From: a virus
Direction: 5' to 3' (one strand)
IMG/VR virus record: IMGVR_UViG_3300022885_000092
Span: 1 to 20,221 of that record
DNA length: 20,221 bases
Of the stretch, positions 3,362 to 14,403 are shown piece by piece. The translations under genes and the position numbers were made by a program. The notes under the pieces are model-generated. The model did no database searches and had not been told where the DNA came from. It was given only the letters and a program-made list of their open reading frames with translations. Position 1 is the first letter of the stretch. Each line of letters opens with the position of its first letter.

Positions 3362-4002
3362 TGGCTACAGCAAATTATATGCAAGGCAGAAAAAGATATG
3401 CCCGTCCCCAGGCAATGCTCTGGTCGGACAACCCAGGAACGCTTGAAGGTGGGCTTTACGTTCCACAGGGATACGAAATTGGGTCTGTTTCGCCACAGGA
3501 CTCAGACGCATCTCTAGTAGATCAATTTATTATTTTGTCTGACGACAACAGGTCAGCCATAGACTTTTCTCCAACAAGAATAGAGCGTAGGGAAAGAATG
3601 ATAAATGGTAGGATGCGATCCTACCATATTGCAGATAAAATGACAGTATCAACAAGCTGGGATTTGCTACCATCAAGATCTTATTTTACAGATCCCGAGT
3701 TTGACCCCACCACTGGAGAGTCTTTATATAAGAACATCGCTAATCAAGAGTATACATCTGACGGTGGAGCAGGCGGTGTAGAAATTTTAGACTGGTATGA
3801 AAAGCATAAGGGCCCTTTTTGGGTTTTTCTATCTTACGATAAGTATAGCAATTTTGGAAAAGATGCTGAAGATTTTGCAAAGCTGGGAAGGTACAGTCAA
3901 ATAATGCAGATGTACATAGCTGACTTTAATTATAGCGTTCAAAAACGTGGCGCTAACAACTATGACTTTTGGAATATTTCTGTGACTCTAGAAGAGGTAT
4001 AA
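3361..4002 (+). CDS. Distal tail (Dit)-like / minor tail protein
   Basis: This encodes 213 residues between the tape measure and the tail hub genes, the position of the distal tail protein that joins the tail tube to the tip in siphoviruses. The sequence is rich in aromatics and beta-type segments and ends WNISVTLEEV, an ending I associate with tail-tube and distal-tail proteins. There is no signal peptide or membrane segment. The GTG at 3361 overlaps the tape measure stop (TAGTG), and AGAGGT at 3344-3349 may serve as a ribosome binding site 11 bases upstream. An in-frame ATG at 3379 is a possible but less likely start because it breaks the coupling pattern. The gene contains an unusually perfect 10-bp inverted repeat (3605-3627). 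A tail role is well supported by position; the Dit assignment is inferred. Confidence 0.65.
   Translation: MATANYMQGRKRYARPQAMLWSDNPGTLEGGLYVPQGYEIGSVSPQDSDASLVDQFIILSDDNRSAIDFSPTRIERRERMINGRMRSYHIADKMTVSTSWDLLPSRSYFTDPEFDPTTGESLYKNIANQEYTSDGGAGGVEILDWYEKHKGPFWVFLSYDKYSNFGKDAEDFAKLGRYSQIMQMYIADFNYSVQKRGANNYDFWNISVTLEEV
3605..3627 (+). other. 10-bp perfect inverted repeat (mRNA hairpin) inside the Dit-like gene
   Basis: The sequence ATGGTAGGAT, GCG, ATCCTACCAT forms a perfect 10-bp stem with a three-base loop. It lies wholly inside codons for residues about 82-89 of the Dit-like protein and is not followed by a T-run, so it does not look like a rho-independent terminator. Whether it has any function is unknown. 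Confidence 0.6.
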
Positions 4003-7000
4003 TGTTTCAAAATCAAGAATTGCAAGATCACCTCTCAACCTCTCCTACTGTTAGGCTTAACTCCGCAGTCATTGCGGAGTGGAATCTCAATATAGCTGAA
4101 AACATTGAGCAGATTGGAAACTACAGGTATCGTCCACTAGATCCCGCTGGCTCTCAATACTCCACAATGCCAAACACGTTTGACATAAACGACTCTGGTA
4201 ACTTTTACACTAACGCTACAAATGCAGATATTTTAATTGACGGCGGCCTTGAGAACGATGGCCAGACACCAATAACATTTGTATCTAAGAAAGAAAAAGA
4301 AAGAATGTTGTATTCTTTGGAAGATTGCTTTCAAAGATTTAGGCCTCGTTCAGGAATTAATAAGTTAAGATATTTTTCTGGAGGGTATTCTCACCACACG
4401 AATATTGATATGGCTACTAGGCCAAGATACTATATGGCACACAAGGATGATCAATTTAAGTATTGGTCTTCATACCGCACTGAAGATGGGATCGAGAGAG
4501 GTATTGCCACTCAGGTACAAGGTACTCAATACTACATCGATGACGCTTCTCCTTATGTTATATATTCTAAATCTTTTGCAGCAAACAGAGTTGTCGTAAA
4601 AATGCAAACGCACGTAGGGACAACAGACCTCGGCCCATTCGTAACGGCATCTGGAACAATAGCTGACCCACTTCATGGAGATGAAAACAAAACAACTCCG
4701 CTAAACTGGAAGATACAAACTCTACAAGAAGACAACTGGGTGGATGCAATATCATTTAACGAGGCATCTACTAGGATAAATGGAGATTCCGTTATTGGAC
4801 CAGATGGATACCTAGAGCTACACTACGGCTTGATCATCCCAGAAGAATATAGGGGTGTGATAATATTTGCAGAAGAGTTCTCTAGTTCAGACTTGTTACC
4901 AGAAGAGTCGTTAAATGGATATTCATATCTTGTAAGACAGAATGATCTGGACAGGGGGACATACCATATTTGGATAGGTGGAGTCTACAAGCAGTTTGTG
5001 CCAGATTATGGATGGTACCTAGGAGAGCAAGACATATCCCCAGAGACTAGCTTTGTTACAGAAATGGTAGAACCAAGATCCTTTACTGATACAAGTAACA
5101 GTTCAATAAAGTTTAGAGAGTTTGACAACATTCGTGGCCTGCGGCTAGTAGTTCAGACAATGAATAAGCAAGACGCCACACTTGATTTAATAGAAATGTC
5201 TCCACGATTAACAGCAGACATTGCAGACAAAACGCTAGATTTTTCTCTAACGAAGGTAGCATCTGACCTAGGCTTGAGTGGAATGCCAGTAGGACAGTTG
5301 CTTGTGTCAACGGGGTCACTTTCGCTATTTGATTACGATCAGAGCTTTAACACAAACAACCCAAACAGTATAATTAAAGACTTTACCGATAAAAATTTGC
5401 AGGTAAAGTTCTATGAAATTATTTCTAATGTCAATGGCTATGATTACTATGTACCAATAAAGACAATGTACGCAGAAACATTTGGGGAAGCCGATGCTCA
5501 GACTAGACAAGTTTCGATACCACTAAGGGACCTATACTTTTACTTTGAATCTATTACTGCCCCCCAAGTACTAATTCAAAACGCTTCTTTATCCTATGCC
5601 ATATCAACTCTGCTAGACTCAATCGGTTTCTCAAATTATTCATTTAAGAGAGTGCCAGGAGAAGACGAGGAGATTATTCCCTACTTCTTTGTGCCACCAG
5701 ATACAAGCATTGCACAGGTTCTAAATGACTTAGCAATATCAACTCAGACTGCCATGTTCTTTGACGAGTTCAACAACTTTGTAATGATGAGCAAGAACTA
5801 CATCATGCCGTCTGAGTCCGATAGAGGAACTGATATGACACTCTATGGTGCTACAGACTTTGTGGATAGTGGCGTCATAGAAAATGAAACAACAAATCCA
5901 GTCTTGGCAAATATTATAGAGATAACTTCTCAGGATAGTGACGTATATAATAGCGGTAGCATTAATTATACTAGTAGATATATTCAAAGAAGCGTGGGAA
6001 GCATAAGGCAGGCCAGCTTGATCGATAGGCATAGAACCTGGACATACAAGCCTGCTCTTCTTTGGGAAGTAGCTCCAACACAAATAATAAAGTCCATAAA
6101 CCAGGAAGTTCAGGATCAGTCTGCTTATGTGCTAGGGGCAATTCCACTAAACTCAGACCTGTCTGATCAATTGCCTTCAGTTCAGAATAACCAGGTAGTC
6201 AACAATAACATGGACCTAGGTGAGGGTATCTACTGGATAACAAGATACAATGGATACTTCTATGCAAACGGCGAAGTAATTCGATATGACGCAGTTCAAT
6301 TTAATATACCATCTGTAGCTTCAGCCAATGGCAATGATCAGCAAAATGATAACAATGTCTGGATTACTAGCAATCAAGAGTATCAAAGATATTTTTCAAA
6401 GCTATCATTTAATGGAAAGATTTATCCGACAGGCCTTGTTAGAATTTATTCCGAACCAAACTTTGAGACAGTTGAAGGAACTACCAGGCTTGCTAATGGA
6501 CCAGTAGCAAAGCATGGACGTGGACAATTTGGGACAAGCATCGTAAAGCATTATGCTGGGGTAGACTCTTATTGGTCAGACAATAAGAACGTTAGAGGAT
6601 GCACTATGGAGTCTCAATTCTTATTCGGCAAAGACATCCCAGAGATTAGCTCTCTAGGCCTTAATGCAGCTGGTGTATCAAATAGCCTAGCTACCAAGAC
6701 AACCAGAAATGGAATTATTAAAAATTTCCTAAGCAATAGCTTTACCAACGAAGCAGAGATCGGCAGCCTTAAGTCTACTCAGACAGGAACAATCCAGTCA
6801 TCAGCATTAGTAATGAATGGCCCGTCATTCTCTACTACAGAATCTCCAATAAGCTTTATCTCTTATGTAAATAAAGAGCTAGACAATAAGTACAAGCACT
6901 TCGGAACAAGAATGAGACTTATTGGAAGGATAGAAAATAGCGAAGTAAGAGGTCAAACAGGAATTGGTAGCACAACATACTACACTGCTGAAACAAATGA

Positions 7001-8321
7001 TCCTAGCCAAAGTATAAATATCGGAGGGGCTTCTGGAGGACTAGCTGTAATGGTGAACCCAGAAACAAATGTCGGATATTACTTTGAGATCGCAGCACTT
7101 TCAGCAAGTAATCTTTCTGCCTATGATAATCTAGAGGGAATCGCAAACGTTATCTTTTATAAGATAATGTCTGACGGACAGTCAAAAGCTGTTCCAGTAA
7201 AACTTTATAGTGGGCTTGCAAACATCATTGTTGACGACGGCAAATTTACTGGGCAATATAGAATGTCTGCAGAAGAGAATCCTACAGTATATGACCTTGC
7301 AGTAGAGTATCAAGATATCGGCTCATCCAGAAGGTTCTTTCTTTATATCAATAACAAGATAGTCGCAACTGTTGACGACACAAGTCCACTGCCGATTTAT
7401 AACAACATGGGTATTTTTGTAAGAGGCGCATCTAGGGGCATGTTTGAAAACATTTATGCAATCACAAACAACTATAGTCAAAACACCAGCTTTGCACTAG
7501 ACACCCCAATTTCTGAAGTTTTCAAGGACTCTGAGCTTGACGTTGCTGATTCATTCAGGCGATACGCAATGAGCGGTGTCGTACAGGCTAGCTACATGAG
7601 TGGAATTAGTTCAGCAGAGCCCCCGAAGTACAGCCTTTATTTTGATGAGTTTGGAACTATTATGCGAGAAGCGGCATACTTTAATGTTAGATATGACAAG
7701 GCCTACCCTGCTCTATACGCTCAGCTATCTCCAACATTTAATAGGATAAAGGGGTACACCGTATCTGGCTTCCAGGCTGGGGCATACGGAGCCGAGTTCT
7801 TAATATTTAATGCCACAGATACAGCCCTTAGCTTAGATGAGACAACAGGAAATTATCTACGCATACAGGGGGTAACTTTTACTCAGCAATCACAGAATGA
7901 GCTTACCGTTGACGACTACTACGCTAGAGTTGGAGACTTTTCCAACCCTCAGTTTAATGGAGATGCTTTAATACAGTCTCCGCTAATTGTAAAAGAAGAG
8001 TTCAAGGATATCAAGCTTAGCAGAATAACTAACGGAATAAAAGAGTTTTCTCTAAATGCAGCATACATTCAGTCAGAAGATGACGCTAGGTCACTAATGG
8101 GATGGATGATATCTAAAGTCCTTAAACCAAGAAAGTCTATAGGAATAAAAATGTTTGCAAACCCAATGATTCAGCTTGGAGACATCCTATCCATAGACTA
8201 TTTCGATGACGGATTTGATCAAGTAGCAGACTCTAAAAAAAGATTTGTAGTTTATAATATTGAATATAGCAGAGATGCGAATGGACCAGAAATGAATCTA
8301 TACCTAAGCGAGGTGGCATAG
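4002..8321 (+). CDS. Tail hub / large minor tail protein with LamG-like insert
   Basis: A 1439-residue structural protein, likely the central hub or tail-tip component that closes the tube and carries host-contact domains. The ATG at 4002 is chosen over the in-frame ATG at 3969 because it overlaps the previous stop (TAATG) and has AAGAGG four bases upstream. Roughly residues 1-400 are a beta-rich N-terminal region and 400-620 a hub-like region. About residues 950-1155 resemble a LamG/concanavalin-type jelly roll (KHFGTRMRLIG, GGLAVMVNPETNVGYYFEIA, RFFLYINNKIVATVDD, MGIFVRG), a common carbohydrate-binding fold. Near the C-terminus, IGIKMFANPMIQLGDILSID resembles hub-domain segments of baseplate and tail proteins. 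No peptidoglycan hydrolase motif was recognised. Order after the tape measure and Dit-like genes supports the call. Domain assignments rest on sequence appearance alone. Confidence 0.8.
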   Translation: MFQNQELQDHLSTSPTVRLNSAVIAEWNLNIAENIEQIGNYRYRPLDPAGSQYSTMPNTFDINDSGNFYTNATNADILIDGGLENDGQTPITFVSKKEKERMLYSLEDCFQRFRPRSGINKLRYFSGGYSHHTNIDMATRPRYYMAHKDDQFKYWSSYRTEDGIERGIATQVQGTQYYIDDASPYVIYSKSFAANRVVVKMQTHVGTTDLGPFVTASGTIADPLHGDENKTTPLNWKIQTLQEDNWVDAISFNEASTRINGDSVIGPDGYLELHYGLIIPEEYRGVIIFAEEFSSSDLLPEESLNGYSYLVRQNDLDRGTYHIWIGGVYKQFVPDYGWYLGEQDISPETSFVTEMVEPRSFTDTSNSSIKFREFDNIRGLRLVVQTMNKQDATLDLIEMSPRLTADIADKTLDFSLTKVASDLGLSGMPVGQLLVSTGSLSLFDYDQSFNTNNPNSIIKDFTDKNLQVKFYEIISNVNGYDYYVPIKTMYAETFGEADAQTRQVSIPLRDLYFYFESITAPQVLIQNASLSYAISTLLDSIGFSNYSFKRVPGEDEEIIPYFFVPPDTSIAQVLNDLAISTQTAMFFDEFNNFVMMSKNYIMPSESDRGTDMTLYGATDFVDSGVIENETTNPVLANIIEITSQDSDVYNSGSINYTSRYIQRSVGSIRQASLIDRHRTWTYKPALLWEVAPTQIIKSINQEVQDQSAYVLGAIPLNSDLSDQLPSVQNNQVVNNNMDLGEGIYWITRYNGYFYANGEVIRYDAVQFNIPSVASANGNDQQNDNNVWITSNQEYQRYFSKLSFNGKIYPTGLVRIYSEPNFETVEGTTRLANGPVAKHGRGQFGTSIVKHYAGVDSYWSDNKNVRGCTMESQFLFGKDIPEISSLGLNAAGVSNSLATKTTRNGIIKNFLSNSFTNEAEIGSLKSTQTGTIQSSALVMNGPSFSTTESPISFISYVNKELDNKYKHFGTRMRLIGRIENSEVRGQTGIGSTTYYTAETNDPSQSINIGGASGGLAVMVNPETNVGYYFEIAALSASNLSAYDNLEGIANVIFYKIMSDGQSKAVPVKLYSGLANIIVDDGKFTGQYRMSAEENPTVYDLAVEYQDIGSSRRFFLYINNKIVATVDDTSPLPIYNNMGIFVRGASRGMFENIYAITNNYSQNTSFALDTPISEVFKDSELDVADSFRRYAMSGVVQASYMSGISSAEPPKYSLYFDEFGTIMREAAYFNVRYDKAYPALYAQLSPTFNRIKGYTVSGFQAGAYGAEFLIFNATDTALSLDETTGNYLRIQGVTFTQQSQNELTVDDYYARVGDFSNPQFNGDALIQSPLIVKEEFKDIKLSRITNGIKEFSLNAAYIQSEDDARSLMGWMISKVLKPRKSIGIKMFANPMIQLGDILSIDYFDDGFDQVADSKKRFVVYNIEYSRDANGPEMNLYLSEVA

Positions 8322-8815
8322 TGGTTAGCGCAACACCAAATTCCCCAGAATCAGTTGCTTCAACTAGCAATAATGGAATAAGGATAGCCGATCCAGACAT
8401 CATAATCTTTGATCCAGACCTAGTGCCAATCGAGGTAATGACTGATTTAGTTTTTGAGAATATAGGCGGTCAAGAAATAATTAATATTGCTAGGACTGAC
8501 CTCGTAAATGGACAAGACGTGATCTATAGTCCTATTAAAAATTTAGCTCAAGTTTTCTTAAGATACAATCCACAGAACATACTAGCACTTCAAGATACAT
8601 CAGATTCAATATTTAATGGATTCCCAATTAAGTATGCTGACCACGTTCCATCTGTTGGCTCTGGACCAAACGGAAACTACGTATACATAGATCAAACTAC
8701 GGGAGACATAGTTGTAGAGGCAATCAACTTAAGGCCAGACTATCAGATTGAAATTCAAGTTGCCAGTTCTATCAATACGTTAGATGATACAATATATATA
8801 GAAGGAGTTTCGTGA
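8321..8815 (+). CDS. Hypothetical tail-module protein, 164 residues
   Basis: I do not recognise the family. The product is acidic and rich in I, V, D and N, with a Pro/Ser/Asn-rich first 20 residues, and looks beta-structured, without membrane segments or cysteines. Its GTG start overlaps the hub stop (TAGTG), and AGGTGG at 8311-8316 lies four bases upstream. It overlaps the next gene by four bases (GTGA). Position between the hub and a collar-fibre-like gene suggests a small tail-tip or fibre-attachment component, which is inference from context only. Confidence 0.7.
   Translation: MVSATPNSPESVASTSNNGIRIADPDIIIFDPDLVPIEVMTDLVFENIGGQEIINIARTDLVNGQDVIYSPIKNLAQVFLRYNPQNILALQDTSDSIFNGFPIKYADHVPSVGSGPNGNYVYIDQTTGDIVVEAINLRPDYQIEIQVASSINTLDDTIYIEGVS
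8801..8807 (+). promoter_or_regulatory. Ribosome binding site GAAGGAG deciding the GTG start at 8812
   Basis: GAAGGAG ends four bases before the GTG at 8812, inside the last codons of the previous gene. It supports a start that overlaps the upstream stop by four bases (GTGA) rather than a later start. Confidence 0.7.
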
Positions 8816-9948
8816 TAACTAACACTGGCAAAAACATTCTTGCTAAATATCTAATTGGTCAGGCCCCAGGCTACGCCTCTTATATAGCAATAGGCTGTGG
8901 AGCAAGGCCCCTAGAATCAAACGGATTGCTGGGCGACTACTCAAGCAAAAAGTCTCTAGACTTTGAGATGTTTAGGATTCCGATTGTATCTAGGGGTTAC
9001 GTAAATGAAGACGGACTGGATAAGATTGTATTTACAGCTGAGATGCCGACAGAAGAACGTTACGAAATATCTGAAATAGGAGTATTTTCCGCAGGCTCTA
9101 ATCCATCTGCAGCAAACTCAGATAGCAGGACTATATACTCTTTTGTAGAAGGAGAAAACTGGGAGTATCATAATCAGGTTAATGCTGAGGAGATTCCCAC
9201 AATATACGAGCCACTAGACGATCCAGCAGAAGATAATGTAATTGGTGTAGCTCCTACTGTGTTTCAAACAAACGCAGACAACAAGATTTTTACTGAGCAG
9301 GGTAGAGTTGAAAGATATGAAAGATGCAGATTCCTAAACAACATGGTAATGATTAGAGGCGATGAGTCAGCCATATCTTCTGATGTAAACGGCAACCTAA
9401 TAGTTGATTCTGGAAATCACATACACCTTAATGGAATTAGCCTAGATTTAAATAGGAACTCTCCTACAGATGAGATGAAGCTAGCCTTTTCTGTTGTAAA
9501 TAAAAATGGTAATGCTCCAGTAGTAGATCCATCGAGAGTTCTTGTACTTGTAGAGTTCGCCTCCGCTGATCAATTTGGTGTAGGAGAGTTCGCTAGATTT
9601 GAGGTAGACATTACTAACACAGTTGGCGATCCAATTTATGATTTTTCGAACAACAGATATTTTGTAATTACAAAGCAGCTACAGGAGTTGGCTAAGAGTT
9701 CTGGGTTCTCCTGGGGAGAGGTTTCTATTGCAAAGGTCTATGCCTCAATTCTAGATGATTTAGGTGACCCATCTGAGGATTACTACATTGCTCTGGATGC
9801 TCTTAGAGTAGAAAACGTTACCTCACAGAACCCTCTATATGGTCTAACTGGGTACACCGTAATAAGAAATACAGATGCAGCAACTATCGTAAAGGTAGCT
9901 AACAGTACAAACTTTATAGAGTTTAGATTTGCGATTGGAATTCAGTAG
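8812..9948 (+). CDS. Minor tail / collar-fibre-like tail-tip protein
   Basis: A 378-residue protein. The first 110 residues (starting ITNTGKNILAKYLIGQ, with IAIGCGARPL, then TEERYEISEIGVFSAGS) resemble the N-terminal attachment domain of phage tail-collar fibres, which docks the fibre to the tail. From about residue 160 onward the sequence looks like a beta jelly roll (RCRFLNNMVMIRGDES, HIHLNGISLDLN, DDYYIALDALRVENV), a shape often used for carbohydrate or surface binding. A GTG start with a good ribosome binding site overlaps the upstream gene by four bases, and the stop overlaps the next GTG (TAGTG). The likely role is a structural part of the host-contact end of the tail. A tail role is strongly suggested; the domain comparison is from recognition of sequence style, not from a search. 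Confidence 0.7.
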   Translation: MITNTGKNILAKYLIGQAPGYASYIAIGCGARPLESNGLLGDYSSKKSLDFEMFRIPIVSRGYVNEDGLDKIVFTAEMPTEERYEISEIGVFSAGSNPSAANSDSRTIYSFVEGENWEYHNQVNAEEIPTIYEPLDDPAEDNVIGVAPTVFQTNADNKIFTEQGRVERYERCRFLNNMVMIRGDESAISSDVNGNLIVDSGNHIHLNGISLDLNRNSPTDEMKLAFSVVNKNGNAPVVDPSRVLVLVEFASADQFGVGEFARFEVDITNTVGDPIYDFSNNRYFVITKQLQELAKSSGFSWGEVSIAKVYASILDDLGDPSEDYYIALDALRVENVTSQNPLYGLTGYTVIRNTDAATIVKVANSTNFIEFRFAIGIQ

Positions 9949-10910: not shown

Positions 10911-11453
10911 ATGGCAGATCGAAACGGGTATAGAAGCCGTGAGGAATACAACAGCGCTTCAGTAATTCCTGGAAACAAAAAGGTCTGGTTCTTAAACGGA
11001 GATCTTGTCAGGGTCCATCATTTAAACAGGTCCAACGGCATCATGTCTGTATATAATATAATTAAGAATAGAATTGAAAGCTGCCTAGTGTCAGACTTTA
11101 AAAAAAATAGAGAAAGAGCTTACACTGTTGGAGAAGCGGCTGACTTAGTAAATCGTCACAAGAAATATATGCCAAGCTTGATGAAGCGGGGAGTCATCCC
11201 AGAGCCTACTGGCAGCCAAGAGGGTGGTGCTAGGGGGTGGCAGGTACGAAGCTATTACTCCGAGTCCCAAGTAAGGTCAATTCGTGATATACTAGCTTCC
11301 TATCACATGGGCAGACCTCGCAAGGACAAGCTTATTACAAATGATATAACTCCTTCCATTCAAGAGTTGACACGGAGGATGGGGGATGGTATACTGACTT
11401 ATACAAGAACAGAAGACGGTAGATTCATTCCAGTTTGGTCTGAATCAATATAA
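10911..11453 (+). CDS. MerR-like helix-turn-helix DNA-binding protein
   Basis: A 180-residue protein. Residues about 71-121 carry a MerR-type winged helix: YTVGEAADLVNRHKKYMPSL, then a wing-like segment GWQVRSYYSESQVRSIRDIL. The N-terminal 65 residues (VWFLNGDLVRVHHLNRSN, ending CLVSDFKK) form a separate small domain, and the C-terminus is unassigned. Such proteins occur in actinobacteriophages and probably bind DNA, perhaps to regulate transcription; target and ligand are unknown. The ATG at 10911 has AGGT six bases upstream and follows the tail block by eight bases. It sits exactly at the switch from tail to replication genes, and a strong promoter reading into the replication genes lies in its own 3' end (11367-11395), making that promoter a natural candidate target. 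Confidence 0.75.
   Translation: MADRNGYRSREEYNSASVIPGNKKVWFLNGDLVRVHHLNRSNGIMSVYNIIKNRIESCLVSDFKKNRERAYTVGEAADLVNRHKKYMPSLMKRGVIPEPTGSQEGGARGWQVRSYYSESQVRSIRDILASYHMGRPRKDKLITNDITPSIQELTRRMGDGILTYTRTEDGRFIPVWSESI
11367..11395 (+). promoter_or_regulatory. Strong sigma70-type promoter for the replication genes
   Basis: TTGACA (11367-11372), a 17-base spacer and TATACT (11390-11395), with TG one base before the -10 (TGGTATACT, extended -10). This is consensus at -35, five of six at -10, and optimal spacing. The start of transcription would be near 11402, still within the regulator gene, giving a leader of about 65-70 bases to the next gene. It faces the replication module, and it is the best promoter match I found in the window. 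Confidence 0.7.
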
Positions 11454-11471
11454 ATAAGAGAGACAGTGGGT

Positions 11472-11678
11472 ATGGAGAACGAGCAGACAAAAGTAACAGT
11501 TTCGCTAGGTTATACACTAAATCTTGGCAACTTCCAATCACTAAGAATTGATCTTGGTGTAGAAGACTCTAGGCGAGATGCCGAGACAGTCAATGAAGCT
11601 TTCGACAGGGTTTATGCCTTTGTTGAGAATAAGCTAATTGCTAAAATTAATGAGGCAAAAGAAGAAGTTCCTGAGTAA
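11472..11678 (+). CDS. Small hypothetical protein, 68 residues
   Basis: The sequence begins MENEQTKVTVSLGYTLNLGN, followed by a beta-strand-like segment (SLRIDLGVED) and a helical acidic C-terminus (EAFDRVYAFVENKLIAKINE). I recall short proteins of this style in other phage replication regions but know no function. The frame also allows a GTG at 11466 (70 residues). The ATG at 11472 is preferred because AGAG-type purine sequence ending near 11462 is then nine bases away instead of three. It is the first gene downstream of the promoter at 11367-11395, and its stop overlaps the next ATG (TAATG). No cysteines or recognised motif. Confidence 0.65.
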   Translation: MENEQTKVTVSLGYTLNLGNFQSLRIDLGVEDSRRDAETVNEAFDRVYAFVENKLIAKINEAKEEVPE

Positions 11679-11986
11679 TGGTGGAGCGCAAAGACCGAAT
11701 GGCTTTGCTTTCTAGGTATAGTAAACTTTATACTCAAAGGTTGAAGGTAAAGCCATTGCTTAACTTAAACGTAGAGCAATGGGCAGCAGATGCCCTAATA
11801 GAGTCCTATGGGCTACCGTATTGCTATGACTTGCTAGAACACTATATGCAAGTATCACAATCCCCTAGTTGGAAATATTTTGCCAACTATGCTCATGACA
11901 TAATCCAAAAAAGAGAGACCTACGCTCAAGACCTTAGGGATCGAGAAGAGCGCAGGGCATTAGCAAAGAAATGGCTAAATGAATAA
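11678..11986 (+). CDS. Hypothetical protein upstream of helicase, 102 residues
   Basis: This small, basic, apparently all-helical protein has many W, Y and charged residues (EQWAADALIESYGLPYCYDL, SPSWKYFANYAHDIIQ, a charged C-terminus RDREERRALAKKWLNE). I do not recognise a named family. It starts with a 1-base overlap after the previous gene and overlaps the helicase start by eight bases, so the two are probably made together. Small helical proteins encoded directly before a replicative helicase can be helicase loaders or primosome factors, so that is a reasonable hypothesis. No ATP-binding motif is present, so it is not a DnaC/DnaI-type AAA+ loader. Confidence 0.6.
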   Translation: MVERKDRMALLSRYSKLYTQRLKVKPLLNLNVEQWAADALIESYGLPYCYDLLEHYMQVSQSPSWKYFANYAHDIIQKRETYAQDLRDREERRALAKKWLNE

Positions 11987-13199
11987 TACAGAATCTAAAC
12001 TAATATCAGCAGTCCTGAGCGACAAGCAAATGCATGTCCTACTCCAGGCAAACATTGACAACCTTTTGAGAACCCATAATGACGTTTGGGACTTCGTAAG
12101 ATCCTATTTTGAGCAGAATGGGTCAACCCCACCCACATCTTTAGTTGTAGAAAAGTTCAGGGACTTCTCACCAGTTGATGGCATAGGGGCAACAAAGCAT
12201 CACCTTGAAGAGTTGCAGGCAGAGTACCTTAATGATAGCCTTAAGGAGATCATTAGATCAGCTGCAGCCGATATACAAAGCGGTACAGCTCCAAGTGCTT
12301 TAGAGAAACTAATCTCTCAGACATCTGAGCTAAAGAAGAACACCTCTAGAATCAAAGACATCGATGCGACTGACCTAGAGAGTGCTGTAGCTTATTACGA
12401 AAATCTAAAGAAGCAGCAAGAGCTTGGCGCATTAGGAATCAAAACAGGTCTTCCAGGATTTGACAACTACCTTCCATCAGGTATTATGCCAGGACAGCTA
12501 GGGGTGTTCCTGGCATACCCTGGTATTGGAAAGTCTTGGCTATCGCTTTACTTTGCTGTTCAAGCATGGAAGCAAGGAAAGACGCCACTAGTGATTAGCC
12601 TTGAGATGAGCGAGACAGAGGTCCGTAATCGTGTATTCACAATTATGGGCGAAGGTCTTTGGTCCCACAGAAAGCTAAGCTCTGGAGAAGTTGAGGTAGA
12701 AGACTTAAAGAAGTGGCATGCAAAGAACTTGGTGGGACGTCCAGAGTTCCATATTATTTCTAATGATTCTGGTGGAGAAGTTACCCCATCAGTTATTCGT
12801 GGAAAGATTGACCAGTATAAGCCAGACTTTATTATTGTAGATTATCTACAGCTAATGTCTCCAAATCAAAAATCGGATAATGAGACTGTTAGAATGAAGA
12901 ACCTTTCTCGTGAGCTAAAGCTAATGGCTATCTCTGAGGAGGTACCAATCATGGCTATATCCTCAGCGACCCCAGATGACGTCACAAAGCTAGATACGGT
13001 ACCAACCCTAGGTCAGACTGCCTGGAGCCGTCAGATCGCCTATGACGCCGACTGGGTGATGGCTCTGGGTAGAGCAGCAAACTCAGACGTAATTGAATGC
13101 GTGTTCCGTAAAAACAGAAATGGATTTATGGGAGAGTTTATGGTACAAGCGGACTTCGATAAGGGATACTATAGGTACAAGGACTTTGAGGATAATTAG
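11979..13199 (+). CDS. dnaB: DnaB-like replicative DNA helicase
   Basis: A 406-residue RecA-fold helicase that would unwind the replication fork as a ring. Residues 1-100 look like a short DnaB-type N-terminal helical domain. Walker A is AYPGIGKS at residues 179-186 (K185), then a DnaB-type EMSETEVRNR segment. Walker B is IIVDYLQLM with D288, and the C-terminal FRKNRNGFMGEF matches the DnaB ending around the conserved arginines. Length is somewhat below the 450-470 residues of bacterial DnaB. Where DnaB normally has SQLNR (motif H3), this protein reads ISSATP (S328, S329), so the usual glutamine is replaced. It overlaps the small upstream gene by eight bases and lies two genes before the primase. 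The family is certain; the symbol is given at family level. Confidence 0.9.
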   Translation: MNNTESKLISAVLSDKQMHVLLQANIDNLLRTHNDVWDFVRSYFEQNGSTPPTSLVVEKFRDFSPVDGIGATKHHLEELQAEYLNDSLKEIIRSAAADIQSGTAPSALEKLISQTSELKKNTSRIKDIDATDLESAVAYYENLKKQQELGALGIKTGLPGFDNYLPSGIMPGQLGVFLAYPGIGKSWLSLYFAVQAWKQGKTPLVISLEMSETEVRNRVFTIMGEGLWSHRKLSSGEVEVEDLKKWHAKNLVGRPEFHIISNDSGGEVTPSVIRGKIDQYKPDFIIVDYLQLMSPNQKSDNETVRMKNLSRELKLMAISEEVPIMAISSATPDDVTKLDTVPTLGQTAWSRQIAYDADWVMALGRAANSDVIECVFRKNRNGFMGEFMVQADFDKGYYRYKDFEDN

Positions 13200-13213: not shown

Positions 13214-13546
13214 ATGTCAAAGTTCCATCACAAGCCTATAAAAAGGTTTGGTATTCAGGGCACTATCTATGACGACTCGGCTGTCGCAAGGCTCCGTGAC
13301 GAGTATAGGAAGCTGCTACTTCTAGAAATGAAGATGTCTGGATATGTTCCAAGGCTTGACATAAAAGAAGATTTTACGATAGAATATAACTCCAATAATA
13401 ATTATTTTGAATTTAAATTATCAATACATGGAATATACGTAGGGAAAAGACAGGGCGAATGGATCACAGGGGTAGACGGAGCAACACCAGTATATATAGC
13501 GAAGAGCAAATCAAGCGAGTACTCACAGGAGCAGGCCTCACAATAG
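13214..13546 (+). CDS. Hypothetical protein overlapping primase, 110 residues
   Basis: I do not recognise the family. The first half is basic with a helical segment (VARLRDEYRKLLLLEMKMSG), followed by an Asn/Tyr/Phe-rich beta-like part encoded by a very AT-rich stretch, and a Ser/Gln-rich tail. The ATG at 13214 is preceded by GGAG at 13209-13212, closer than ideal, and by TATAAT at 13203-13208, so a leaderless message is conceivable. The last 88 bases overlap the primase gene in another frame. Position between helicase and primase suggests a replication accessory role, by context only. The long overlap raises the chance that its C-terminal tail is not under selection. Confidence 0.55.
   Translation: MSKFHHKPIKRFGIQGTIYDDSAVARLRDEYRKLLLLEMKMSGYVPRLDIKEDFTIEYNSNNNYFEFKLSIHGIYVGKRQGEWITGVDGATPVYIAKSKSSEYSQEQASQ
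13356..13385 (+). promoter_or_regulatory. Candidate promoter upstream of the primase gene
   Basis: TTGACA (13356-13361), an 18-base spacer and TAGAAT (13380-13385, five of six) inside the 110-residue gene. There is no TG extension. It would start transcription at about 13392, roughly 65 bases before the primase ATG at 13459. Coding constraint and the AT-rich surroundings raise the risk of a chance match. Confidence 0.35.
13371..13440. other. AT-rich segment with two adjacent palindromes
   Basis: Only 13 of these 70 bases are G or C, against roughly 40% elsewhere. It contains two 10-base perfect palindromes, AATAATTATT (13397-13406) and AATTTAAATT (13410-13419), three bases apart. It lies in the coding region of the 110-residue protein, between helicase and primase functions and over a candidate promoter. 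Easily melted DNA here could be an origin element or a regulator site, but nothing in the sequence proves that. Confidence 0.4.
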
Positions 13547-14403
13547 AGTCAGAGGTAGATACCGACTATATTTTATTCTGCCCTTTTCACCCAAATCATC
13601 GTACACCAGCTGGAGAAGTAGACAAGCAAAGAGGAATCTTCTTTTGCTTTTCTTGCCATCATGTCTGCGACCTTAATGAGCTTATCATGCATACCACTGG
13701 CCGATCATATTTTGAATCAGCCAGGTTTATAAAAAGCAAAGAAGCCGAGACAAGCATTCAGGACATCATTGCAAAGCAACTACACACCAAGCCAGACTAC
13801 GTACCATTTGATGAAATATTAATTAAAAGACTTAATGCCCAAGGCGTTGACTCTGAGAGAGCCACATCATACTTTTCTGGCAGGAAGATTACAAAAGAAT
13901 CTATGCTTAAGTTTGGCCTTGGCTATTCTGAAAAGCAAGACATGGTCACTGTACCAGTTCACTCCCCAGACGGTATGTCAGTTGGATTTGTCGGTAGGTC
14001 TGTCGATGGAAAAGACTTTAAGAATACTCCTGGATTGCCAAAAAGCAAGATCCTGTTTAACCTGCACAGGATAAAGGCAGCAGACAGAGTATACGTCGTA
14101 GAGTCATCTTTTGACGTTGTGCGACTTGATCAATGCGGACTTCCAGCGGTTGCAACCTTAGGCGCTAATGTGTCTAACATTCAGGTAGAGCTGCTGAAAA
14201 AATACTTCAACAACATTATAGTTGTTGCAGATAATGATGAAGCTGGAGGAAACATGAGCTCAAGGATTCAAGAAAGACTTGGATCTCGTGTGTCTCTACT
14301 TCATCTAGATAAACAGTATAAAGATATAGGCGATATGCCAGACGATGAAATAAAAAAGCTTGAAGTATCGTTTGACAAATCAATACAAGCCATGCTAAAC
14401 TAA
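13459..14403 (+). CDS. dnaG: DnaG-like DNA primase
   Basis: A 314-residue primase that makes RNA primers for replication. A CHC2-type zinc site occupies the N-terminus (C41, H44, C63, C66). The TOPRIM catalytic fold follows: VVESSFDVV with E215 and D219, VVADNDEAGG with D258 and D260, and KDIGDM with D289 and D292, the usual metal-binding acidic residues. Bacterial DnaG is near 600 residues; this protein has zinc and RNA-polymerase parts but no obvious C-terminal helicase-interaction domain. The ATG at 13459 has AGGG four to five bases upstream and is the only reasonable start before the zinc domain, which forces an 88-base overlap with the preceding gene. A candidate promoter lies at 13356-13385. 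Family is certain. Confidence 0.9.
   Translation: MDHRGRRSNTSIYSEEQIKRVLTGAGLTIESEVDTDYILFCPFHPNHRTPAGEVDKQRGIFFCFSCHHVCDLNELIMHTTGRSYFESARFIKSKEAETSIQDIIAKQLHTKPDYVPFDEILIKRLNAQGVDSERATSYFSGRKITKESMLKFGLGYSEKQDMVTVPVHSPDGMSVGFVGRSVDGKDFKNTPGLPKSKILFNLHRIKAADRVYVVESSFDVVRLDQCGLPAVATLGANVSNIQVELLKKYFNNIIVVADNDEAGGNMSSRIQERLGSRVSLLHLDKQYKDIGDMPDDEIKKLEVSFDKSIQAMLN
14372..14401 (+). promoter_or_regulatory. Candidate extended -10 promoter for the ssDNA-binding protein gene
   Basis: TTGACA (14372-14377), an 18-base spacer and TAAACT (14396-14401), preceded by TGC to give an extended -10 (TGCTAAACT). Only four of six -10 bases match, but the important T, A and final T are present. The message would start near 14408, leaving a leader of about 20 bases that holds AAGGAG. 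It sits at the very end of the primase gene, directly before a gene expected to need high expression. Confidence 0.5.

Follow-up and report, generated by a model that had tools for sequence, protein, structure and literature searches.

Bacterial promoters of the sigma-70 type (TTGACA/(TGn)TATAAT) have spacers of 16–18 bases. Promoters inside phage genes are of a known kind: lambda pI lies inside xis and drives the next genes. In packed phage genomes, intragenic promoters are readily written off as chance matches. Promoters activated by MerR-family regulators have spacers of 19–20 bp, with a dyad operator in the spacer. In the Stanwilliamsviridae (TunaTartare, Jada, Circinus and others), a MerR-like gene, three small genes, DnaB and primase stand in this order in all 11 annotated regions; a small gene lies between DnaB and primase in nine of these 11, and SSB is next in TunaTartare, the sole stretch reaching that far.

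Here, we describe a candidate promoter, P2, inside the gene for a MerR-like protein (merR) on a 20,221-base virus fragment from an IMG/VR record (the window). P2 has both hexamers and a 17-base spacing in common with sigma-70-type promoters, and an ATG peak at the seventh base in other related sites is a likeness in start offset; it differs from them in lying inside a reading frame under synonymous constraint, in a -10 hexamer that is mostly TATACT and in an optional TG. Like lambda pI, it would be a phage promoter inside one gene for the following genes, but it was traced by synonymous conservation across 154 relatives of an uncultured lineage and appears to be one of a tandem pair. The gene order of the window matches that of the Stanwilliamsviridae, but with two small genes rather than three before dnaB; the MerR-like proteins, compared as single proteins, share about 30% identity. 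The merR product has a winged helix–turn–helix (wHTH) DNA-binding domain in common with the MerR-family regulators CadR, HiNmlR and CueR, but mainly this domain is matched, with low Z scores, and the spacing of P2 is unlike that of MerR targets. Judged by its sequence, P2 would belong to an ordinary promoter class in an unusual place. No published report of this promoter was found in a search that was thin on subscription journals and preprints, so this carries little weight. Across this environmental family, synonymous conservation makes a clear case for embedded promoters with no need of culture or RNA data, and operon starts in further uncultured phages could be mapped by such a scan.

Methods

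Relatives were taken from IMG/VR as the best 80 loci per scan (of 595, 591 and 574 confirmed) in three scans, which used the merR protein, the protein of the next gene and a distant alignment. The search covered 253 sequences (L001–L080, L082–L253 and the window; L081 is a copy of the window and was omitted), of which 252 were matched. L151, which contains N, and L200, with a 12-base reading frame, were excluded. Merging of identical coding sequences left 202, of which the 154 with at least 60% identity to the window protein were counted. A tblastn-based set (157 relatives for merR) was used instead of the 154 for the unguided scan and the matched draws. Gene 9948 (11 relatives) was omitted from the codon scan, the unguided scan and the matched draws; the draws also excluded gene 13214 and the four P2 codons.

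In the unguided scan, ten genes were tested on both strands at each position with three spacings, giving 37,320 tests over about 6 kb; the score was the mean match to TTGACA/TATAAT across relatives. A two-hexamer promoter was defined as a match of at least 10/12 lying 3 to 115 bases upstream, and mononucleotide shuffles served as the control. Regions of 12 Streptomyces phages were read; nine belong to named Stanwilliamsviridae, 11 are annotated and Ankus is unannotated. The named relatives of the merR protein comprise 127 records, all from Streptomyces phages and all below 60% identity. Among bacterial genome contigs, no confirmed carrier of a relative was found.

Results

Gene neighbourhood and the MerR-like protein

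The genes at the locus are listed below.

10911–11453, + strand: MerR-like winged-HTH gene (merR), 180 amino acids, PHROG 9440, carrying the putative embedded promoters
11466–11678, + strand: gene 11466, function unassigned, first gene 3' of P2, PHROG 5189
11678–11986, + strand: small gene 11678, function unassigned, PHROG 11101, part of the predicted downstream operon
11979–13199, + strand: DnaB-like replicative helicase gene (dnaB), DnaB_C E 6e-31, predicted downstream operon
13459–14403, + strand: DNA primase gene, PHROG 47, E 7e-48

Gene 11466 may actually begin at the ATG at position 11472. The order 3' of merR is two small genes, the DnaB-like helicase, a small gene, primase, an SSB-like gene, DNA polymerase III alpha and RecA. 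Upstream, tail families are matched at 4002–8318 and 8812–9945 (E 7e-61, minor tail protein; E 2e-13, tail protein). An earlier sequence-only reading of the window had placed the locus at a tail-to-replication boundary, which is roughly right, although the genes adjoining merR upstream (9948 and 10459) have no family match with a useful E-value. Terminator predictions were uninformative (15 in the window, 14.1 in shuffles).

The same reading had called the merR product MerR-like, and both domain and fold searches agree. A Pfam scan of 49 relatives at E 0.5 or better gave HTH_17 in 33 (best E 2.8e-6) and MerR_1 in seven (best E 2.7e-7); the window protein alone gave a non-significant E of 0.15. 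AlphaFold2 modelling on 49 relatives had a mean pLDDT of 86.9. The top structural matches were MerR DNA-binding domains over residues ~68–146, with a Z of about 5 and modest coverage; the best was CadR (Z 5.1, r.m.s.d. 1.8 over 57 residues). Foldseek gave no match at E 0.001 or better, and the best hits in a PDB sequence search were unrelated proteins (best E 0.21). As regards the dimerisation helix that follows the DNA-binding domain in MerR-family regulators, the model of the merR protein has helix 118–129 and a short helix 150–157 only, and its C-terminal part was barely covered by the fold search. Many Streptomyces phage homologues are annotated as MerR-like or HTH. The merR product is taken, on these predictions, to have a MerR-like DNA-binding domain, and no more than this is accepted here.

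Sequence and position of P2

P2 occupies codons 153–162 of the 180-codon merR gene.

11367–11372, + strand: predicted -35 hexamer TTGACA, codons 153–154 (Leu TTG and Thr ACA)
11373–11389, + strand: spacer of 17 bases with TG at 11387–11388, synonymous positions freely variable
11390–11395, + strand: predicted -10 hexamer TATACT (Gly160 GGT, Ile161 ATA, Leu162 CTN)
11400–11403, + strand: Tyr164 TAT and the next A, at the predicted P2 start (~11401–11403)

Both hexamers, the 17-base spacing, the TG and the location inside merR coincide exactly with the motif given in the sequence-only reading, and the spacing falls inside the sigma-70-type range. With 11 of 12 consensus matches, P2 is one of six such sites in the window, all on the + strand, and it is the sole TTGACA-N15-19-TATACT in the window, a pattern with no occurrence in 100 dinucleotide shuffles. 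Promoter-like sites of at least 9/12 number 60 in the window compared with 44.4 ± 6.5 in shuffles; site number alone is weak evidence. P2 is placed above chance because it is conserved at synonymous sites, with both hexamers present in 134 of the 154 relatives.

Conservation of P2

Among the 154 relatives (at least 60% protein identity, from the best 80 loci per scan), TTGACA is kept in 142, and the -10 hexamer reads TATACT in 141 and TATAAT in five (146 together). The 134 relatives with both hexamers combine TTGACA with either form, and 20 are without one perfect hexamer; in L038, the -35 position reads CTTACT. The extended -10 that had been proposed for P2 is present in the window but is not constant, the dinucleotide being TG in 105 relatives and CG in 49. 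As a raw count, from which co-occurrence is not claimed, four of the five TATAAT sequences have CG instead of TG.

Six codons are possible at Leu153, yet 152 of the 154 relatives use TTG; four are possible at Gly160, and all 154 use GGT. Many codons are used at the spacer residues Arg155, Arg156 and Gly158. On a tree built without the P2 block, parsimony gave two changes at Leu153, none at Gly160, six at Ile161 and eight at Thr154, counts that include many close kin (only identical sequences were collapsed). In a scan of 1,380 codons, the observed and expected changes were 2 and 46.0 for Leu153, 8 and 35.9 for Thr154, 0 and 41.8 for Gly160 and 5 and 28.2 for Ile161, giving 15 synonymous changes for the four P2 codons where 151.9 were expected; so low a total was reached in none of 200,000 amino-acid-matched draws. 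Leu153 ranked first of 121 Leu codons, Gly160 first of 102 Gly, Thr154 second of 59 and Ile161 second of 93, and Leu153 and Gly160 were the two most constrained of all 1,380 codons. Conserved synonymous positions in the hexamers, for which the sequence-only reading had suggested looking in related phages, are thus found.

In 33-base windows, synonymous change relative to expectation was third lowest at 11385 (0.48) and fifth lowest at 11382 (0.52); ranks one, two and four (13454, 13448 and 13445) extend into a two-gene overlap. Windows at P1 (see below; 0.60 at 11283), at the beginning of gene 11678 (11681–11690) and in gene 13214 before the overlap (13397–13412) are low as well, and the primase gene and dnaB have weaker ones. 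Outside P1 and P2, merR has no run of constrained codons, only single ones (Tyr164, Lys138, Phe63 and Ser10).

Nine relatives at 38–42% identity have TTGCGT at -35, a weak match in which TTG is retained, and their -10 position reads TATAAT in six, TATTAT in two and TATAGT in one, despite different amino acids. Neither hexamer is present in L216 (37% identity). The remaining distant relatives are without P2, with the exception of L199, which has TATAAT at the -10 position and no matching -35; the site is absent at the homologous codons in all 12 Streptomyces phages read.

P1 and other embedded sites

Three further elements, none of them given in the sequence-only reading, stand out.

11285–11293, + strand: P1, extended -10 TGATATACT in codons 125–128, a second putative embedded element with no conserved -35
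14372–14401, + strand: candidate embedded promoter TTGACA-N18-TAAACT with TG, over the last codons of the primase gene and preceding ssb; TTGACA in 116 of 121 relatives
8785–8793: extended -10 TG[AG]TACAAT close to where gene 8321 ends, before tail gene 8812, and retained in 37 of 38 relatives

P1 lies 102 bases upstream of P2. Codons 125–128 are mostly CGT, GAT or GCT, ATA and CTN, which give TGATATACT or TGCTATACT; 133 of the 154 relatives have TGN followed by TATACT or TATAAT. Arg125 CGT, Asp126 GAT and Ile127 ATA are conserved; codon 126 ends in T in 94%, although it encodes Asp in 109 relatives and Ala in 36. For a -35 element of P1, spacings of 15–19 give a mean match of at most 2.9 of 6. 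P1 is absent in the nine relatives at 38–42% identity.

The unguided scan ranked 11367 (P2) best, with a mean of 10.85/12 over 157 relatives, followed by 14372 (10.26/12, 120 relatives), 13362 (9.45, 80 relatives), 12460 (9.26, 152 relatives) and 13356. When just the extended -10 was scored, 8785 (38 relatives), 11387 and 11285 came out on top. The sites at 13356 and 13362, which reach at least 10/12 in 53–56% of 80 relatives, may serve primase. The 12460 site, inside dnaB, reaches at least 10/12 in just 39% of relatives; among its codons, Asp162, Tyr164 and Leu165 vary freely, and Ser167, Gly168, Ile169 and Pro171 change less than expected.

Promoter class and predicted start

The pattern TTGACA-N16-18-TATA[AC]T was found 79 times in 18 related contigs; the reversed pattern was matched once. 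The merR site, recognizable by its spacer, accounts for 13 of the 79, and the other 66 are in 14 of the 18 contigs. Sixty of these 66 were analysed (one site of G002, four of G010 and one of G009 were left out), and some of the 60 are similar between contigs. An ATG stands at the seventh base after the -10 hexamer in 14 of the 60 sites (L258, L259, L260, L262, L264, L265, L273, L274, L281, L284, L288, L293, L295 and L297), compared with at most three at any other offset up to 18, and 12 of the 14 ATG frames run through the short retrieved stretch with no stop codon. This peak suggests leaderless messages, and because of it the start is predicted at the seventh base after the -10 hexamer, which for P2 is 11402.

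Across the 60 sites, T is at the sixth base in 34 and A at the seventh in 39. In merR, Tyr164 TAT is invariant in all 154 relatives, with no changes against about 26 to 31 expected. Its T before A fits the same start-base preference with the start shifted by one base. This codon is more constant than the hexamers are, and a promoter alone does not fully account for that; possible causes are an initiator T and one arm of a dyad.

Predicted operon structure

Two-hexamer promoters precede gene 11466 in 135 of 184 relatives (three in shuffles), ssb in 111 of 126 (four), primase in 77 of 122 (5.5) and gene 10459 in 34 of 119 (three). The corresponding counts were 7 of 153 for merR (1.5 in shuffles), 0 of 142 for gene 11678 (3.5), 3 of 147 for dnaB (two), 3 of 80 for gene 13214 (1.5) and 1 of 89 for gene 8812 (three), the last despite the extended -10 that precedes it, to which, standing alone, this count is blind. 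The helicase operon appears to start at P2, because a promoter is found upstream of gene 11466 but hardly before gene 11678 or dnaB. By the same count, which holds for two-hexamer promoters only, merR appears to be without a promoter of its own directly in front.

Discussion

A probable promoter under selection

Three things are observed directly at P2: its presence, its strong synonymous conservation and its position ahead of the gene 11466 block. We regard P2 as a real, selected promoter of the sigma-70 type, in tandem with P1, that most likely serves the housekeeping sigma of the host RNA polymerase and drives the helicase operon, and give this reading a probability of about 0.92; the embedded promoters are very probably real. 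What counts against it are the 20 relatives with an imperfect hexamer, the weak -35 match and missing P1 in the nine relatives at 38–42% identity, L216, the 12 Streptomyces phages and the invariance of Tyr164 TAT. The sequence-only reading's claim that the regulator gene physically carries the promoter of the downstream operon is supported in this form, as a promoter apparently under selection between tail and replication genes. Use by RNA polymerase, the sigma class, the start site, the extent of the operon and the timing are inferred from sequence.

Host RNA polymerase with its housekeeping sigma would read P2 within the last 28 codons of merR and start transcription at ~11401–11403, and the operon would run from gene 11466 through the DnaB helicase towards primase, with P1 and P2 acting as a tandem pair. 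Because both lie 3' of the merR start codon, transcripts from P1 and P2 could not make the full regulator; they would yield the replication proteins, and the regulator would therefore rely on transcription from the tail side. The scheme is testable and outlines one way in which these phages may keep the expression of replication genes apart from that of tail genes.

Proposed regulation by the merR product

The sequence-only reading proposed that the regulator occupies its own promoter segment and thereby acts as a tail/replication switch. The promoter lies inside the gene, so the two are necessarily linked, and the product has a MerR-like wHTH fold, but the P2 spacer is 17 bp compared with the 19–20 bp of MerR-activated promoters, and its synonymous sites are free. 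For these same two reasons, a MerR-type operator in the spacer was not taken as the best explanation. A dyad, GTATA-N6-TATAC (11389–11404), spans the -10 hexamer and the start. Outside the -10 it has a single position that is free to vary, the third base of Tyr164, where all 154 relatives have T; the letters of the dyad are, however, mostly set by amino acids, and GTAT-N8-ATAC is absent around the -10 of the 60 other promoter sites in related contigs. The 12 Streptomyces phages read also retain the protein without the P2 site. We therefore consider control of P2 by its own gene product unlikely.

A different arrangement, which we hold to be just as doubtful, is that the regulator, once made by tail-side transcription, shuts P1 and P2, for example via the GTATA-N6-TATAC dyad; in the uncultured lineage, the promoter would have moved into merR, which heads the same gene block in cultured relatives; the regulator would thereby be left out of the transcripts of the operon, and P1 and P2 would switch on the replication genes early.

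Constraints other than a promoter

Conservation of P2 through RNA structure or another coding constraint is very improbable. L003 (z -2.24) is predicted to form a small GUAUA/UAUAC hairpin, as is L065, though weakly, but four of the five folds (the window twice, L033 and L065) were no better than shuffles (z -0.68 to 0.99). Over codons 116–175, the antisense frame -1 is open in 60 of the 154 relatives, whereas frames +1, +2, -0 and -2 are open in 0, 2, 1 and 0. The conserved positions are, moreover, those of a -35, a -10 and a predicted start, with free positions between them, as in the promoter reading that we prefer. That P2 is a chance match held in place by protein constraint and codon bias has next to no probability, for although Leu-Thr and Gly-Ile are conserved residues and some codons elsewhere (several Phe TTT) are nearly fixed, codons for the same residues elsewhere vary widely and the matched draws never reached so low a count.

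Further observations around merR

Strong synonymous conservation was also noted in the early codons of gene 11678 (11687–11705; CGC AAA GAC and GCT TTG). In four of ten distant relatives (L201, L202, L211 and L220), TTGACA-N17-TGN with TAAAAT or TAGAAT lies upstream of merR. By eye, a small zinc-ribbon-like frame with CxxC pairs seems to occupy the gap before merR in L082 (3881–4000), L085 (2321–2440), L177 and L201; this frame is seen in some Streptomyces phages and distant relatives and is without annotation in the Streptomyces records read. The Streptomyces phages Riptide, Lululemon and Angela (L086:2386–2461, L089:2385–2461 and L093:2436–2497) have an extended -10, TGCTATACT, before merR, followed, again as judged by eye, by a G+C-rich hairpin that ends in a T-rich tail.
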